A model generated the notes under the pieces. The model did not search any database. It was given only the letters and a program-made list of their open reading frames with translations, and had not been told where the DNA came from. The translations under genes were made by a program, and so were the position numbers. Shown piece by piece: positions 34,633 to 43,949 of a stretch of 43,949 bases of DNA. The stretch's first letter is position 1; each line of letters starts with the position of its first letter. This DNA comes from a virus. Location: IMG/VR virus record IMGVR_UViG_3300010885_026620, positions 1-43,949 of that record. The stretch is one strand, 5' to 3'.

Positions 34633-35156
34633 AATGGAAAGATGATTTTATTGCATTTGTTGGCAATGAAACAGGAATATTAAATTATCCTCCTCACGGT
34701 AAAAGAATCACAAAATCCGAATACCTTAAATTAACAGGTCGTGAACCGTTGCAACGGAATTGGAAGGGGGTAAGGTTTAGAATGGTAGAAAGTTTTATTA
34801 CAAAATATTGTGTAATAACAAAAAAAGATAGTTCAAATTATTACATTGAAGGTAAATCTGGAGGTTGTGATTTTAGGCAACAAAGAAATATTGATGAAGT
34901 CAATAAAAACTTTGAAAACGGAACATGGATTGAACTCAAGGAAGAACCTACTAATGCAAAAGAACTAATTGCAGACCCTACTTATTACACCCCTAATTAC
35001 TTAGTTGATGCAATTAGTAACATCCACGTTGAACGCCCTAATACACTAGAGGATAGAGTTAAGGAACTTGAAAAAGAAGTTGAAATGTTGCCTAAGTTAT
35101 TTGAAAAATTAGATGAATTATTATCAATCCTAAATAAAAGACATGGAGATAAATAA
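34629..35156 (+). CDS. Hypothetical protein with C-terminal coiled coil
   Basis: The 175 residues have a compact N-terminal half ('MKWKDDFIAFVGNETGIL', 'GRYPLQRNWKGVRF'-like region) and a C-terminal helix with heptads ('LEDRVKELEKEVEMLPKLFE'). No known domain; in the recombination operon, so possibly a DNA-metabolism accessory. Confidence 0.5.
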   Translation: MKWKDDFIAFVGNETGILNYPPHGKRITKSEYLKLTGREPLQRNWKGVRFRMVESFITKYCVITKKDSSNYYIEGKSGGCDFRQQRNIDEVNKNFENGTWIELKEEPTNAKELIADPTYYTPNYLVDAISNIHVERPNTLEDRVKELEKEVEMLPKLFEKLDELLSILNKRHGDK

Positions 35157-35319
35157 AATACAAGTCGATATTATTAAGAAAAACATCATAATAGCCGACA
35201 ACGATAATATCCCTTTTGTTGAACACGTTTTCATCCCCCTAGAAGATTGGAACGTAGTTAAAAGTTACATAGATTCACAAATTAAACTAAAAAGTAAGGC
35301 TACTGACAGCCAGGAATAA
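35143..35319 (+). CDS. 58-residue hypothetical protein
   Basis: A short ORF overlapping the previous gene by 14 bases and ending two bases before the next ATG. Its 'VFIPLEDWNVVKSYIDSQIK' resembles 'IIIPITEWEDIKNYIDQQF' in the 37135 product, so the two may be distant paralogues. Function unknown. Confidence 0.55.
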   Translation: MEINKIQVDIIKKNIIIADNDNIPFVEHVFIPLEDWNVVKSYIDSQIKLKSKATDSQE

Positions 35320-36487: not shown

Positions 36488-36491
36488 AACA

Positions 36492-36527
36492 CCTGCTATA
36501 CCAAATCCGTATAGCAGGTTAATTTTT
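36492..36527 (+). terminator. Intrinsic terminator between ssb and the nuclease gene
   Basis: A perfect 10-bp stem, CCTGCTATAC (36492-36501) with GTATAGCAGG (36509-36518), seven-base loop, then TTAATTTTT. Together with the palindrome just upstream it makes a double hairpin after ssb. Confidence 0.85.
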
Positions 36528-36533
36528 ACAACA

Positions 36534-36992
36534 ATGACCTACAAAGAACGATACAACGAGATTCACAAAGAGTGGAGTAAAAAGAAGTTCCCAAGCGTAC
36601 ATAAGGATAATTTCTACACTTTGCCTAAAATGCCTGACATAAGAGCAAGTAACGGGCTTACAAATTATATAGTGAACGTTATTAATTGGATGGGTGGAAA
36701 TGCGACAAGGGTATCAAGTGCAGGGCGAATGGTCGATGCACAACAGAAACAACCAAGCGGCACAATCCTTACAGTCAAAAAATACATTCCATCCACAACA
36801 CGCAAAGGAACGGCGGACGTTACAGCGACTTTTAAAAGCAAAAGTTTTAAGTTTGAAATAAAAATAGGAAATGATAAACCTAGTGCTTACCAAATTGAAG
36901 AACAAAGAAGAGAAATAGCAGCAGGCGGTTATTATTTTTTTATAAAAACTCCCGATGATTTTTGGAGTGCAATAGATTTTGTATTGAAATAA
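36534..36992 (+). CDS. VRR-NUC-like nuclease
   Basis: The 152 residues contain the VRR-NUC/PD-(D/E)XK core: G92-T-A-D95 ('KGTADVTATF'), E108-x-K110 ('FKFEIKIG'), then Q120 and Q124 ('SAYQIEEQRREIAAGGYYFF'). This layout fits Holliday-junction or flap nucleases in phage replication modules, which also commonly sit after SSB. It may resolve recombination intermediates or trim DNA before packaging. Confidence 0.75.
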   Translation: MTYKERYNEIHKEWSKKKFPSVHKDNFYTLPKMPDIRASNGLTNYIVNVINWMGGNATRVSSAGRMVDAQQKQPSGTILTVKKYIPSTTRKGTADVTATFKSKSFKFEIKIGNDKPSAYQIEEQRREIAAGGYYFFIKTPDDFWSAIDFVLK

Positions 36993-36996
36993 TGAT

Positions 36997-37004
36997 TATA
37001 TTTG
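36997..37004 (+). promoter_or_regulatory. -7 element (TATATTTG) for the structured RNA
   Basis: TATATTTG overlaps the end of the nuclease gene. A TTTG lies at 36978-36981, closer than the ideal 19 bases (15), so strength is uncertain. Transcription would start near 37009 and run into the structured RNA. Confidence 0.55.
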
Positions 37005-37008
37005 CAGC

Positions 37009-37128
37009 AGTTCGCACAGGTAGAAGTGTACGACAATAAACTCATTTTAAACGCCCGAAAGGCGGACTAGCCGAACATAACTAAAGTGTTATGTTCACTT
37101 CTACCTAGTCCATCTTTCGGGTTTTTTT
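37009..37128 (+). ncRNA. Structured RNA or transcription attenuator before the replication-initiator operon
   Basis: Four helices can be read from the sequence. A: GGTAGAAGTG (37019-37028) with CACTTCTACC (37096-37105). B: CCCGAAAG (37054-37061) with CTTTCGGG (37114-37121). C: GGACTAG (37064-37070) with CTAGTCC (37105-37111). D: GAACATAAC (37073-37081) with GTTATGTTC (37088-37096). B, C and D nest and, with the T-run at 37122-37128, make a terminator. A crosses B and C, so it is either a pseudoknot or an alternative fold that would open the terminator. The 3' arms of D, A, C and B are almost contiguous. No known RNA family comes to mind. Thirteen bases later the next gene starts. Confidence 0.72.
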
Positions 37129-37134
37129 ATTTTT

Positions 37135-37329
37135 ATGGCACAATTAGAATTAATTTACGTTGTTGAAACTGAAAATAATACTGAAGAAAAGTATTTATGT
37201 ACAGTAACAAAAAGAAATGAAATCCAAATTTTAAAAGCCTTAAATGGTGAAAAAATTATTATTCCTATTACTGAATGGGAAGATATAAAAAATTATATAG
37301 ACCAACAATTTACTCACTACGAACCTTAA
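37135..37329 (+). CDS. Hypothetical protein, first gene after the attenuator
   Basis: The 64 residues start 'MAQLELIYVVETENNTEEKY' and form strands followed by the helix 'ITEWEDIKNYIDQQF', similar to the 35143 product. It begins six bases after the terminator-like T-run. Function unknown. Confidence 0.5.
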   Translation: MAQLELIYVVETENNTEEKYLCTVTKRNEIQILKALNGEKIIIPITEWEDIKNYIDQQFTHYEP

Positions 37330-37340
37330 AATATCTAACG

Positions 37341-38102
37341 ATGGCAAAAGATACATTTTACTTTACTCATGATTTCAATACTAGAAATGATGAAAAAATA
37401 AAGCTACTAATAAGAAAACACAGGATGCAAGGTTATGGCATTTTTTGGGCAATTATAGAAGACCTTTATAATAATGCAAACGTAATGAGATTGGATTACG
37501 AAGGTATTGCAGACGATTTAAGAGTGGATACTGACATAATAAAAAGCATCATAAATGACTTTAATTTATTTATAATTGATGGTAATAATTTTGGCAGTTT
37601 ATCGGTAGAAAGAAGACTGAACGAAAGGAAAGAAAAAAGCAAAAACGCTAGTGATTCAGCAAATAAAAGATGGGAAATTTATAGAAATTATTTAGATAAT
37701 AATGCGAACGCAATGCAAACGCATAGCGAACGCAATGCGAATGTTATGCGAACGCAATGCGAAACAGATGCGACCGCAATGCTAGAAAGGAAAGGAAAGG
37801 AAATAAAAGAAATAAATAAAGAAAATATTATTGTTGCTAAAGCAACCTCCACCAAAAAGTCATTTGAAGAAAGAAGGAAAGATTTTGCTATACAAGTACA
37901 ATCTTTTAAGGATAAGTACGAAAAAGATTTATTAGCAAAATTCTTTAGTTATTGGGTAGAGCCTAATAAGCCAAAAACTAAAATGAAATTTGAATTAGAA
38001 AAGACTTGGGATTTATCTATGAGGATTGCTAGATGGAAAGCTAACGACTTCAAAAAGAAAATTACAGAAATCCCTATTTACGTACCCGAATTTGTAATGT
38101 AA
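37341..38102 (+). CDS. DUF4373-type replication initiator
   Basis: I start at the ATG at 37341 (253 residues), since the domain begins directly there: 'KDTFYFTHDFNTRNDEKIKL', 'LIRKHRMQGYGIFWAIIEDL'. This is the DUF4373/Lin1244-like N-terminal domain (winged helix) of phage replication proteins. The middle (residues about 121-148, N/A/M/R/T-rich) is coded by four iterons; the C-terminal half has 'FEERRKDFAIQVQSFKDKY' and 'LLAKFFSYWVEPNKPKTKM', common in phage initiators that load helicase. As in lambda O, the origin probably lies inside the gene. Confidence 0.75.
   Translation: MAKDTFYFTHDFNTRNDEKIKLLIRKHRMQGYGIFWAIIEDLYNNANVMRLDYEGIADDLRVDTDIIKSIINDFNLFIIDGNNFGSLSVERRLNERKEKSKNASDSANKRWEIYRNYLDNNANAMQTHSERNANVMRTQCETDATAMLERKGKEIKEINKENIIVAKATSTKKSFEERRKDFAIQVQSFKDKYEKDLLAKFFSYWVEPNKPKTKMKFELEKTWDLSMRIARWKANDFKKKITEIPIYVPEFVM
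37704..37782 (+). repeat. Four 13-bp iterons at exact 22-bp spacing (candidate origin)
   Basis: GCGAACGCAATGC occurs at 37704, 37726 and 37748, and GCGACCGCAATGC at 37770: four copies, each 22 bp apart with nine-base spacers. Because 22 is not a multiple of three, each copy is read in another frame, so the conservation is in DNA, not protein. A purine-rich, AT-rich tract (37783-37838, GGAAA repeats) follows, as at unwinding elements. This is the layout of an initiator-bound replication origin. Confidence 0.85.
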
Positions 38103-38103
38103 C

Positions 38104-40017
38104 ATGATAGCACAATTAACATTAGATGCAGTTAAGCAAAGGATTGACATAGTTACTCTAATAGGTGAATATGTTACATTAAAAAAGAACGGTAGTAATC
38201 ATGTTGGTTTATGTCCTTTCCATGACGAGAAAAGCGGTTCATTTACTGTAAGTAAATCGAAAGATATGTTTAAATGTTTTGGATGCGGTAAAAGTGGTGA
38301 TTCTATTACTTTTGTCATGGAACACCAAAAAACAACATATCCAAACGCTTTAAAGTTTCTTGCAGCAAAATACAATATTGAAGTACTTGAAGAAACAACC
38401 GAAAATAAAAAAACTTACGAAAAGCCTACTCCTAGACTTGAAAAGTTATCAAAAAAGACAATTGAGTATTTTGAAAAGAATAGGGGAATATCAAACAATA
38501 CTTTACTACGATTCAATGTAACTGAATGTTTGGAATGGATGCCGAAAGCACAAAAAGAAGTGCCTACTATTTGTTTTAATTTTTATCAAAATGACGAATT
38601 GGTAAATATTAAGTTCAGAGCAAAAAATAAAGACTTTAAATTAAATAAAGATAGTAAGCTAATTTTTTACAACATTGATGCAATAGATGGTACAGACGAT
38701 GCAATAATTTGCGAAGGTGAAATAGATGCGATGTCTTTTTATGAAGCGAATGAGTATAATGTTGTAAGTGTTCCAAACGGGGCAGCTACAGGTAAATTGA
38801 ATTTAGAATACTTAGACAATTGTTATAAATATTTTGAAAATAAGGAACGTATTTATATCGCTAGTGATGGCGATGCAGCCGGTAAAAAATTAGCGGAAGA
38901 ACTTTGCAGACGTTTAGGGAAAGAACGTTGTTTATTGGTGCAATATCCTGAAGGGTGCAAGGATACAAACGAAGTGTTATTGAAGTACGGCAAACAAGCG
39001 GTAAATGATTTGATTTTAAACGCTAAGTTATACCCACTTGAAGGTGAAAGCACAATGGAGGATATGTTTCCAACATTGCAAGACTTTTATAAAAATGGTT
39101 ATCCCAAAGGATGCAATAGTGGAATGTTAGATGAATTAGGCGATAATGATAGTTTTGTTACGTTTATCCCTCAGCAACTTACAATGGTCACAGGTATTAA
39201 TGGACATGGTAAGGACGAGGTTGTGAATAATATTTGCATGGGATTAGCTAAGATTAACGGCTGGAAAACGGCAGTTTGCCAATTTGAAGAAAATACAGAA
39301 ATAACAGCGAGTAAATTACTAGAGAAATACACTAACAAAGCATTTGACTTTAGAAAAGATACCACACAAAGAATGAATCCTGATGAATTTAATGAAGGAG
39401 TTTTATTTGTTTCAGAATATTTTAAATTAATGAATGTTGATGAAATGGATACTACGATTGATTCAATCATCGAAAAGGCAAAGCAAATGATTGTAAGATA
39501 TGGGATTAACTGCTTAGTGATTAGCCCGTGGAACTGTATAGAGCATCAAATACCTATTGGGATGCCCGAAACTCAATACATAAGCCAAACACTTAGCAAG
39601 CTAACATCCTTTATAAAAAAATATCATATTCATTGTTTCTTAGTTGCTCATCCTACTAAGATGCAAAAGAATTTAGTTACTAAGAAATACGAAATACCTA
39701 CAATGCAAAATATTAGCGGTTCAGTTCATTTTGCTAATAAGACACATAACGGATTATCAATTTATCGAAATTTTGAGGACGGCACAACAGAGGTTCATGT
39801 TCAGAAAGTAAAGTTTTATTGGTTGGGTCGTGTTGGTATGCGTTTATTTGACTACGATAGAATGACAAGACGTTACACAGGATTAGACGTTGCAGAAGTA
39901 AAGCCACAAACACAGCAACCACAACCTCCGCCAAACTTTAAAAAGATTGAAGTAGTTCAGCAATTAGAGCAAGCGGATTTATGGGGGATGGACGTAGATA
40001 GAGAAAATGAATTTTAA
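38104..40017 (+). CDS. Primase-helicase (CHC2 zinc, TOPRIM, DnaB-type helicase)
   Basis: The 637 residues hold, in order, a CHC2 zinc finger (C37, H40, C58, C61), a TOPRIM domain (E204 in 'ICEGEIDAM', D255-x-D257 in 'ASDGDAAG') and a RecA-fold helicase. The helicase P-loop reads 'GINGHGKDE' (364-372), with D371 instead of S or T, then 'SPWNCIEHQIPIGMPETQYI' and 'VAHPTKMQKN'. It makes primers and unwinds DNA, like T7 gp4 and Twinkle. It is two bases behind the initiator gene. The odd P-loop may lower ATPase activity. Confidence 0.9.
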   Translation: MIAQLTLDAVKQRIDIVTLIGEYVTLKKNGSNHVGLCPFHDEKSGSFTVSKSKDMFKCFGCGKSGDSITFVMEHQKTTYPNALKFLAAKYNIEVLEETTENKKTYEKPTPRLEKLSKKTIEYFEKNRGISNNTLLRFNVTECLEWMPKAQKEVPTICFNFYQNDELVNIKFRAKNKDFKLNKDSKLIFYNIDAIDGTDDAIICEGEIDAMSFYEANEYNVVSVPNGAATGKLNLEYLDNCYKYFENKERIYIASDGDAAGKKLAEELCRRLGKERCLLVQYPEGCKDTNEVLLKYGKQAVNDLILNAKLYPLEGESTMEDMFPTLQDFYKNGYPKGCNSGMLDELGDNDSFVTFIPQQLTMVTGINGHGKDEVVNNICMGLAKINGWKTAVCQFEENTEITASKLLEKYTNKAFDFRKDTTQRMNPDEFNEGVLFVSEYFKLMNVDEMDTTIDSIIEKAKQMIVRYGINCLVISPWNCIEHQIPIGMPETQYISQTLSKLTSFIKKYHIHCFLVAHPTKMQKNLVTKKYEIPTMQNISGSVHFANKTHNGLSIYRNFEDGTTEVHVQKVKFYWLGRVGMRLFDYDRMTRRYTGLDVAEVKPQTQQPQPPPNFKKIEVVQQLEQADLWGMDVDRENEF

Positions 40018-42228: not shown

Positions 42229-42423
42229 ATGAACATAGAACGTTGGCAACAGCACAGCCTACCCGAAAAATGGGAGTTAATAGGCAAGATTACCCACTTA
42301 ATGCAAAATAGCGAACAAGGCTATGACAAGTGCATGGAGTTGATTAGACAAGCCGAGCAAGACGGCATTTTTTCACAAGTAAAATTTGAACATAATGGAA
42401 TGGACGTACAAGAACAAAACTAA
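42229..42423 (+). CDS. Small hypothetical protein with conserved leader motif
   Basis: The ATG at 42229 (64 residues, 'MNIERWQQHSLPEKWELIGK') follows TTAAGATT; a GTG at 42199 is less likely. A short hairpin (CACC/GGTG, 42187-42203) lies upstream. Acidic and helical. Overlaps the XRE gene. Confidence 0.55.
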   Translation: MNIERWQQHSLPEKWELIGKITHLMQNSEQGYDKCMELIRQAEQDGIFSQVKFEHNGMDVQEQN

Positions 42424-42601
42424 GTCCGAGTGGGCGAAGTTAATCAGAAAACAGCGTAGGGCGTTGGATATAACGCAGCAAGAACTAGCAGGTTATGTGA
42501 ACGTTGCTACTTCGACAATTGCTCACATTGAAACGTGTAGAATGTTTCCAAGTGAGGATAAACTAGAAAAAATATTGTTGGTACTTAAAATTGAAGAATA
42601 A
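42386..42601 (+). CDS. XRE-family HTH transcriptional regulator
   Basis: The 71 residues contain a Cro/C1-type helix-turn-helix: 'WAKLIRKQRRALDITQQELA', then 'YVNVATSTIAHIETC'. An ATG at 42395 is an alternative start. It probably regulates phage promoters; no repressor with a dimerisation domain is seen, so lysogeny is uncertain. It overlaps the next gene by one base. Confidence 0.85.
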   Translation: MNIMEWTYKNKTKSEWAKLIRKQRRALDITQQELAGYVNVATSTIAHIETCRMFPSEDKLEKILLVLKIEE

Positions 42602-43242: not shown

Positions 43243-43949
43243 TGCCTATCCCCTATCAAGGCAGCAAAAGAAAGTCTGCACACAAAATTTATAGTACTAT
43301 TTCAAAGTTGAATCCTGAAAGTAAATTTTTAGTCGATTTGGTTTGCGGCGGTTTTGCAGTAGGCGAATATTTCATCAAAAAAGGATGGAGTGTTATCGCC
43401 AATGACAAAAACAAATATGTAGTTGCCTTATTGAAAAAGGTAATATTTGAAGGATTACCTGAAGATATTGTAACAAAGTTTGTTACTCGTGAAATGTTCT
43501 TTGATATTAGCCGTGACAATAGCGACAATTATGAACCGTGGTATGTGGGTTTTGTTCAATGCGGTTATAGTTTTGGGAATAATCAAGTAACTTATTTATT
43601 TGGCAAAGACATTGAACATATCAAAAAAGCAGGACATGAATTAGTAGTTAATAGCAATAGTGCTTTAATTCAAGGCATGCTGACAAAGGAACAAATAGAC
43701 CGTGTATTTCAATATAAAGACCGTATTAGGCGTAGGATTGAGTTAAGGCGTATATCAGTAGAATTACAAAGTAGAACGCTAGAATTACAGCAGTTGCAGC
43801 AGTTGGAGCAGTTGCAGCGGTTGCAGCAGTTGCAGCGTAAACAAAACGTAAGGTTATTTTCAGACGATTATAAAAATATTGTTATCCCTACAGATGCAAT
43901 AGTCTATTGTGATAATCCATATAAGGGAACGTCTGAATATAAAGAGGGC
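43242..43949 (+). CDS. D12-class DNA N6-adenine methyltransferase, N-terminal part
   Basis: This frame runs off the right end and continues at base 157 on the left. Residues 1-10 'MPIPYQGSKR' and motif I 'FLVDLVCGGF' (29-38), then N54-D55, are the S-adenosylmethionine-binding elements of D12/Dam-type enzymes. The Q/L-rich tract follows near residues 178-202, then motif IV as D224-N-P-Y227 in this copy (D-I-P-Y in the left copy). It is coupled to the DUF3560 gene by TAATG. Together with the cytosine methyltransferase it suggests anti-restriction modification. Confidence 0.88.
   Translation, partial: MPIPYQGSKRKSAHKIYSTISKLNPESKFLVDLVCGGFAVGEYFIKKGWSVIANDKNKYVVALLKKVIFEGLPEDIVTKFVTREMFFDISRDNSDNYEPWYVGFVQCGYSFGNNQVTYLFGKDIEHIKKAGHELVVNSNSALIQGMLTKEQIDRVFQYKDRIRRRIELRRISVELQSRTLELQQLQQLEQLQRLQQLQRKQNVRLFSDDYKNIVIPTDAIVYCDNPYKGTSEYKEG
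43776..43949. repeat. Right copy of the contig-end overlap
   Basis: Matches 1-156 except for 18 extra bases in the CAG/TTG tract and A at 43915 versus T at 122. Because the difference is a whole number of codons, the methyltransferase frame stays open in both versions. Confidence 0.93.

Follow-up and report, generated by a model that had tools for sequence, protein, structure and literature searches.

A predicted kissing-loop or pseudoknotted terminator ahead of the replication operon in a phage genome and its relatives

In the sections of the account of phage P4 that we draw on, the replication operon is under the control of an RNA derived from its own leader, and the same sections describe IsrK of Gifsy-1, a small RNA made by termination in a phage leader from which read-through yields an mRNA (PMC4825925). 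In the pT181 attenuator, which operates in a replication-control transcript and includes a kissing step, formation of an intrinsic terminator depends on a hairpin at the 5' side of the leader (PMC4878617). The fluoride riboswitch, in the excerpts of its description considered here, joins a pseudoknot to a downstream intrinsic terminator in co-transcriptional folding (PMC11077080). Replication-gene control in phages of Bacteroidota is little described in the literature searched, and no published description of a module like the one below was found in the open-licence part of it.

The window, by which we mean the whole 43,949-base stretch of DNA that was analyzed (IMG/VR virus record IMGVR_UViG_3300010885_026620), encodes terminase, portal and tape-measure proteins, and its promoters, together with its relatives, indicate a phage of Bacteroidota. 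A gap of 142 bases separates a small gene at 36534-36992, with a weak match to a phage endonuclease family, from the replication operon, and into this gap are packed a perfect -7 box, five helices and a T7 tract. The first ORF past the terminator (37135-37329, + strand) starts 7 bases after the T7 tract and encodes 64 aa of unassigned function, with no match in Pfam or PHROG. Behind it lie the genes for a replication-initiation protein with a Lin1244_N domain (37341-38102, + strand; PF14297, E 1.4e-10; phrog_2562 'replication initiation protein', E 1.7e-13) and for a DnaG-type DNA primase/helicase (38104-40017, + strand; PF01807, E 3.8e-36; phrog_239, E 1.5e-88). The flanks are thus as a preliminary description of this DNA had them, with a promoter element on the 5' side and the initiator operon on the 3' side. 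A search of the 1.5-kb region against annotated phages gave no DNA match.

Several other features of the record were noted. The small ORFs at 35143-35319 and 37135-37329 have similar C-terminal ends (9/20 identical, pair E 7e-6) and are possibly a small paralogous family. A second terminator-like hairpin of 11 pairs lies at 36491-36519, just 5' of the gene at 36534. An AntA-type antirepressor-like protein (PF08346) is encoded at 403-1251 and a small XRE-type repressor-like protein (PF01381) at 42386-42601, and no integrase was seen among the proteins of the record that were scanned. Bases 123-156 recur as the final 34 bases (43916-43949), which suggests that the assembly overlaps or is circularly permuted at its end.

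All parts of the element lie on the + strand. The Bacteroidota-type -7 promoter element TATATTTG (36997-37004) is perfect by sequence, and its -33 partner is weak or mis-spaced. Helix A pairs a 5' arm, GGTAGAAGTG (37019-37028), with its exact complement CACTTCTACC (37096-37105), which sits inside the loop of the terminator hairpin; it has 10 bp, or 11 if A37018-T37106 is counted, and both the 10-mer and its complement are unique on this strand of the record. The A 5' arm is presented by hairpin F (37012-37033), which is weak in the window (TCG 37012-37014 with CGA 37031-37033) and is followed by an A-rich, single-stranded linker (37034-37051), the relatives having AT-rich linkers of similar length. 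The terminator is built from helix B at its base (8 bp, CCCGAAAG 37054-37061 with CTTTCGGG 37114-37121) and helix C in its upper stem (7 bp, GGACTAG 37064-37070 with CTAGTCC 37105-37111), with the 9-bp hairpin D in its loop (GAACATAAC 37073-37081 with GTTATGTTC 37088-37096). The T7 tract (37122-37128) directly adjoins the B 3' arm, so that the element has the form of an intrinsic terminator, a GC-containing B/C hairpin and then seven T on the transcribed strand. Two bases serve twice, C37105 in both C and A and C37096 in both D and A. Finally, the short hairpin E, CGCC(CGAAA)GGCG (37052-37064; CGCC 37052-37055 with GGCG 37061-37064), occupies bases of the B 5' arm and therefore excludes B. The minimum free energy of -41.6 kcal/mol compares with -22.1 +/- 3.4 in dinucleotide shuffles (z = -5.8), none of 200 shuffles being as stable. 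Helices A to D had been named in the preliminary description at just these lengths, with T7 after B, with A crossing B and C and with the four 3' arms nearly gapless, and we found all of this: the A 3' arm sits between the 3' arms of D and C, flush with both. Helices E and F do not figure in that description. Its notion of two incompatible folds has to be moved to a different pair of helices, as A and B/C can coexist in a pseudoknot, whereas E and B are strictly exclusive.

Loci of relatives were gathered through primase homologues in IMG/VR, GTDB and annotated phages, and the association with replication is in part a product of this sampling. Loci L015-L019, whose primases are 45-47% identical, have the same arrangement in the same place with different letters. 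A DNA pattern made from E and B only retrieved further members, all of them at such replication loci and all with A, whereas chance matches of the pattern at other places were without A. Where picks were blind to A and rested on the E/B pattern or on protein homology, an A helix of 7-10 bp was present in 11/11, as against ~4% of loop shuffles, and a covariance model lacking the A pairing brought in 4 further members with 9-10 bp of A at the predicted place in each; in all, A was kept with different letters in the 15/15 relatives recovered without its use, four cultured flavobacterial phages among them. Helix F reaches 5-8 bp in most relatives, with the A 5' arm in its loop, and the most reduced forms, L028 and L035 for example, have a terminator loop of 7 nt that is fully complementary to the 7-nt F loop. 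From this pairing of the F loop with the terminator loop the shared architecture can be read as promoter, 5' hairpin, AT-rich linker and terminator hairpin with the two loops paired. The modules are preceded by a TAnnTTTG-like box (at most one mismatch in TTTG allowed) 16-26 nt from the A 5' arm. The other parts are less constant: D is missing from minimal relatives such as L014 and L028, and E, conserved in window-type members with CGCC/GGCG changed to AGCC/GGCT in some, is found in most members and is absent or negligible in several (L028, L031, JQ). Compared with other terminators, those of the modules have 5' arms that fold on themselves with greater stability (p = 0.005), a difference that some subgroups do not show.

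The helices are maintained by compensatory change. In eight distinct window-type sequences, two-sided compensatory changes were seen in 22/32 pairs and 99.6% of cells were paired, against 72.5% in shuffles; the covariation score was 0.80 against 0.24 when shuffled, 0/500 shuffles scored as high, and sliding by one column destroyed the signal. By helix, two-sided changes occurred in 6/8 counted pairs of A (100% of cells paired), in 7/15 of B and C together, in 4/4 of D and in 5/5 of F (97.5% of cells paired). The arms were laid out by hand and the A columns are hand-chosen 8-mer registers, for which reason we make no claim of homology for single A columns between subgroups. The compensating changes that the preliminary description proposed to look for in A, B, C and D among relatives are there, in every helix. 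Since G-T combinations are common among the helix pairs (14) and A-C nearly absent (1), it is RNA-level pairing that is kept, and this pattern of substitutions shows selection at the RNA level on both the A5'-A3' pairing and the terminator stem. With loop-loop pairing conserved through such changes in A and F, the common architecture, as read from the alignments, is that of a kissing-loop or pseudoknotted terminator.

These results bear on two rival explanations. The element could act as single-stranded DNA, as an origin or a protein-binding cruciform, and it does adjoin the replication initiator and primase genes; the covariation and the 14 G-T against 1 A-C point to RNA, the T tract and promoter are strand-specific, and modules also precede other genes, so that we rejected a single-stranded-DNA origin and regard a DNA element of any such kind as exceedingly improbable. 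The hairpin could also be an ordinary terminator or insulator that just ends upstream transcription, with A incidental. Terminators are common between phage operons, and the terminator alone is the minimum-energy fold of the full-length RNA; against this, a promoter stands ~110 nt 5' of the terminator, and A covaries as strongly as the stem and was recovered blind. The covariation led us to reject the ordinary insulator, to which we give very little credence.

With cut-offs of at least 7 bp for A and at least 12 for the terminator stem, promoter and module occurred together upstream of the primase genes in 22/154 non-redundant replication loci, as compared with 1/154 on the reverse strand and 3/1540 shuffles; 116/154 loci had no recognizable module even at the loosest setting. 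Four cultured phages carry it in the gap before the replication operon, Tenacibaculum phage JQ, Cellulophaga phi10:1 and Flavobacterium lillamy9-1 and elemoA, and these and the window have one convincing copy each in complete or 50-kb sequences. Second modules with a different A were found on the same contig in L029 (155, 1030), L244/L256 (1980, 3018) and L248 (2981, 7322) and are probable in L249 and L250. Some copies precede genes other than the replication operon, the second copy of L244/L256 standing before a gene whose product resembles, by eye, phage HNH/NUMOD-type proteins. The idea of one copy per genome, solely at the replication operon, was dropped on account of these second copies and other genes. 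An attenuator or pseudoknotted regulatory RNA before the initiator, as first proposed, thus gains from the conserved architecture, from the compensatory changes in every helix, from the order of promoter, terminator and start codon in relatives and from the four cultured flavobacterial phages, and loses its restriction to replication operons. The window-type model found one copy on a Chitinophagaceae MAG contig and, under strict filters, none in 296 Bacteroidota genomes, and the idea of a host RNA was rejected. The integrated-prophage loci L135, L145, L146, L148 and L151 had no promoter-linked module. Rfam gave no match at gathering score in the window or at the module in 12 relatives; sub-threshold matches, STnc310 and Trp_leader_2 among them, look like chance and were rejected.

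Some details of individual relatives deserve mention. In lillamy9-1 (L116), an Rfam DUF805b RNA (RF02914) scores above gathering at 1647-1681, upstream of gp41. phi10:1 (L114) and lillamy (L116) have a common post-terminator leader, TTTAATAGTT.T.GGTAATCTT.AAACC ... ATG, with ~45-50 nt from T tract to start codon, and their modules themselves differ. The A arms appear swapped between JQ (L113, ~2876-2943), whose 5' hairpin carries GCATCCTAC and whose terminator loop carries GTAGGATGC, and L028 (3422-3480), whose 5' hairpin carries GTAGGATGC, so that the 5' loops of the two would be mutually complementary, perhaps by chance. A divergent module with a 12-bp A occurs in L031 (3483-3586), L029 (1029-1130) and L033, in surroundings otherwise like those of L028/L035; it looks as though the module had been swapped as a unit.

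A itself differs among closely similar neighborhoods (L028/L035/L029/L031), as if it were free to change while pairing, or selected to differ. This variation matters for two readings in which the terminated RNA acts in trans. One holds that the product is a stand-alone phage sRNA, short and knotted, directed at host or phage RNA, at a protein or serving as a decoy, with the terminator merely its end. Promoter and terminator do delimit a discrete transcript of ~100-130 nt, it has an elaborate fold with neither end left open, and a shape that is kept while the sequence drifts would be expected if a protein recognized it. However, when the long A sequences of the window, JQ and lillamy were each compared with the same strand of the genome they come from, no third match appeared, and A differs between near neighbors, which argues against A as the seed for any fixed target; for the long A sequences, the first of these grounds led us to reject a target within the phage's own genome. 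The tight coupling to the following start codon would also be left unexplained, and we hold a stand-alone sRNA to be unlikely. The other reading makes A a specificity element: processed pieces of the terminated RNA would compete for the nascent A and lower replication-gene expression as copies accumulate. It would resemble the copy-number or superinfection control exerted by plasmid kissing RNAs, the complementary A segments are exposed in loops and have diverged even between closely related phages, modules on one contig differ in A, and P4 offers, in the sections cited, a replication operon controlled by a leader-derived RNA (PMC4825925). Yet intramolecular pairing should beat pairing in trans, most members examined, the window included, lack an antisense -7 box over the element, no third complementary segment of the seqC kind was found, and the few loci of integrated prophages that were inspected yielded no passing module; such competition in trans seems to us improbable.

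The reading we prefer, and think rather probable, is that the module is a leader attenuator of the replication operon whose terminated product is a short knotted RNA. Its position upstream of the operon and the mutually exclusive E and B, both present in the sequence, would suit an attenuator. RNA polymerase would start at ~37010, mostly halt at ~37128 and free a knotted RNA of ~120 nt, and the replication genes would be fed by the read-through fraction and any upstream transcription. Among modules the next ATG lies 7-51 nt past the T tract, mostly 10-20, which leaves no room for an operon promoter in between; the terminator must then be passed by transcripts from the module promoter or from upstream. 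As the terminator looks strong in every member, the read-through is assumed. During transcription, A could form over D, and over E where present, while the 3' arms of C and B are still to be made; once transcribed, these arms would have to melt E and zip up the terminator stem with the A contact inside it. In energy calculations made without pseudoknots, ions or polymerase, the minimum-energy fold of an RNA ending just past A3' has A in most members tested, the window included, and in the window type A wins over D and E, while in the full-length RNA no other nested fold comes close to the terminator. A and E would in this way set the timing of terminator closure, and the balance of the folding steps would determine the read-through level, adjusted, in our view, by a phage- or infection-dependent factor. 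As A lies in the loop of the terminator and not in its stem, it need not oppose termination; from the folding order, our guess leans slightly toward A and E delaying the terminator (antitermination) over A helping it. Knotted from one end to the other, the completed RNA is likely to be stable and could serve some other function as well.

The attenuator is argued for by the covariation, the tests blind to A, the enrichment at replication loci, the G-T and A-C counts, the ATG spacing, the folding order, the stability of E, and the differing A among similar neighborhoods and within contigs. The absence or negligible size of E in L028, L031 and JQ, the loci that are missing the module and the weak F of the window speak against it. 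A bolder version, which we put forward as a doubtful speculation, is that phages of Bacteroidota carry widespread, undescribed 'kissing terminators' in which the private A pairing is an address; if true, this would amount to self-limiting, copy-number-like or superinfection-specific control of replication. The module would be a recurring RNA architecture, maintained by compensatory change as the sequence turns over and placed where replication expression can be limited. Its presence in cultured phages of Flavobacterium, Cellulophaga and Tenacibaculum makes experiments feasible, and a natural kissing complex linked to a terminator offers a system in which to study whether contact with the terminator loop alters termination.

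A riboswitch is expected to carry a conserved ligand-binding sequence; the module, in contrast, conserves little beyond its architecture and corresponds to no Rfam family at gathering score. What it shares with the fluoride riboswitch, as far as the excerpts describe it, is the coupling of a pseudoknot to a downstream intrinsic terminator (PMC11077080). Its likeness to the P4 immunity leader, again from the cited sections, would be one of logic, namely leader attenuation together with a short RNA. There the CI RNA is processed, acts in trans and pairs with two segments, seqA and seqC (PMC4825925, same sections), whereas the module has just two segments, A5' and A3', which pair in cis with A3' in the loop of an intrinsic terminator. 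No third copy of A that could correspond to seqC was found in the window, JQ or lillamy, and the 600 nt downstream of members contain only short partial ones. With IsrK, as portrayed in the same sections, the module would share a terminated phage-leader RNA and read-through giving mRNA, the latter being proposed for the module; it differs in phage group, operon and structure, and those sections describe no pairing of a 5' hairpin with a terminator loop. In pT181, the pairing partner of the 5' region is the 5' strand of the terminator stem, and the signal is an antisense RNA (PMC4878617); in the module, where the A 5' arm lies in a 5' loop, its partner is the terminator loop and not the 5' strand of the stem. 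An antisense -7 box across the element was seen neither in the window nor in 8/11 other members examined; one lies downstream in L214 and L198 and within the element in L035. Although the hallmarks of P4 and pT181 that were looked for are thus absent from the window, we place the module, from its predicted structure and position, among attenuators or leader RNAs, with an architecture that sets it apart from them.
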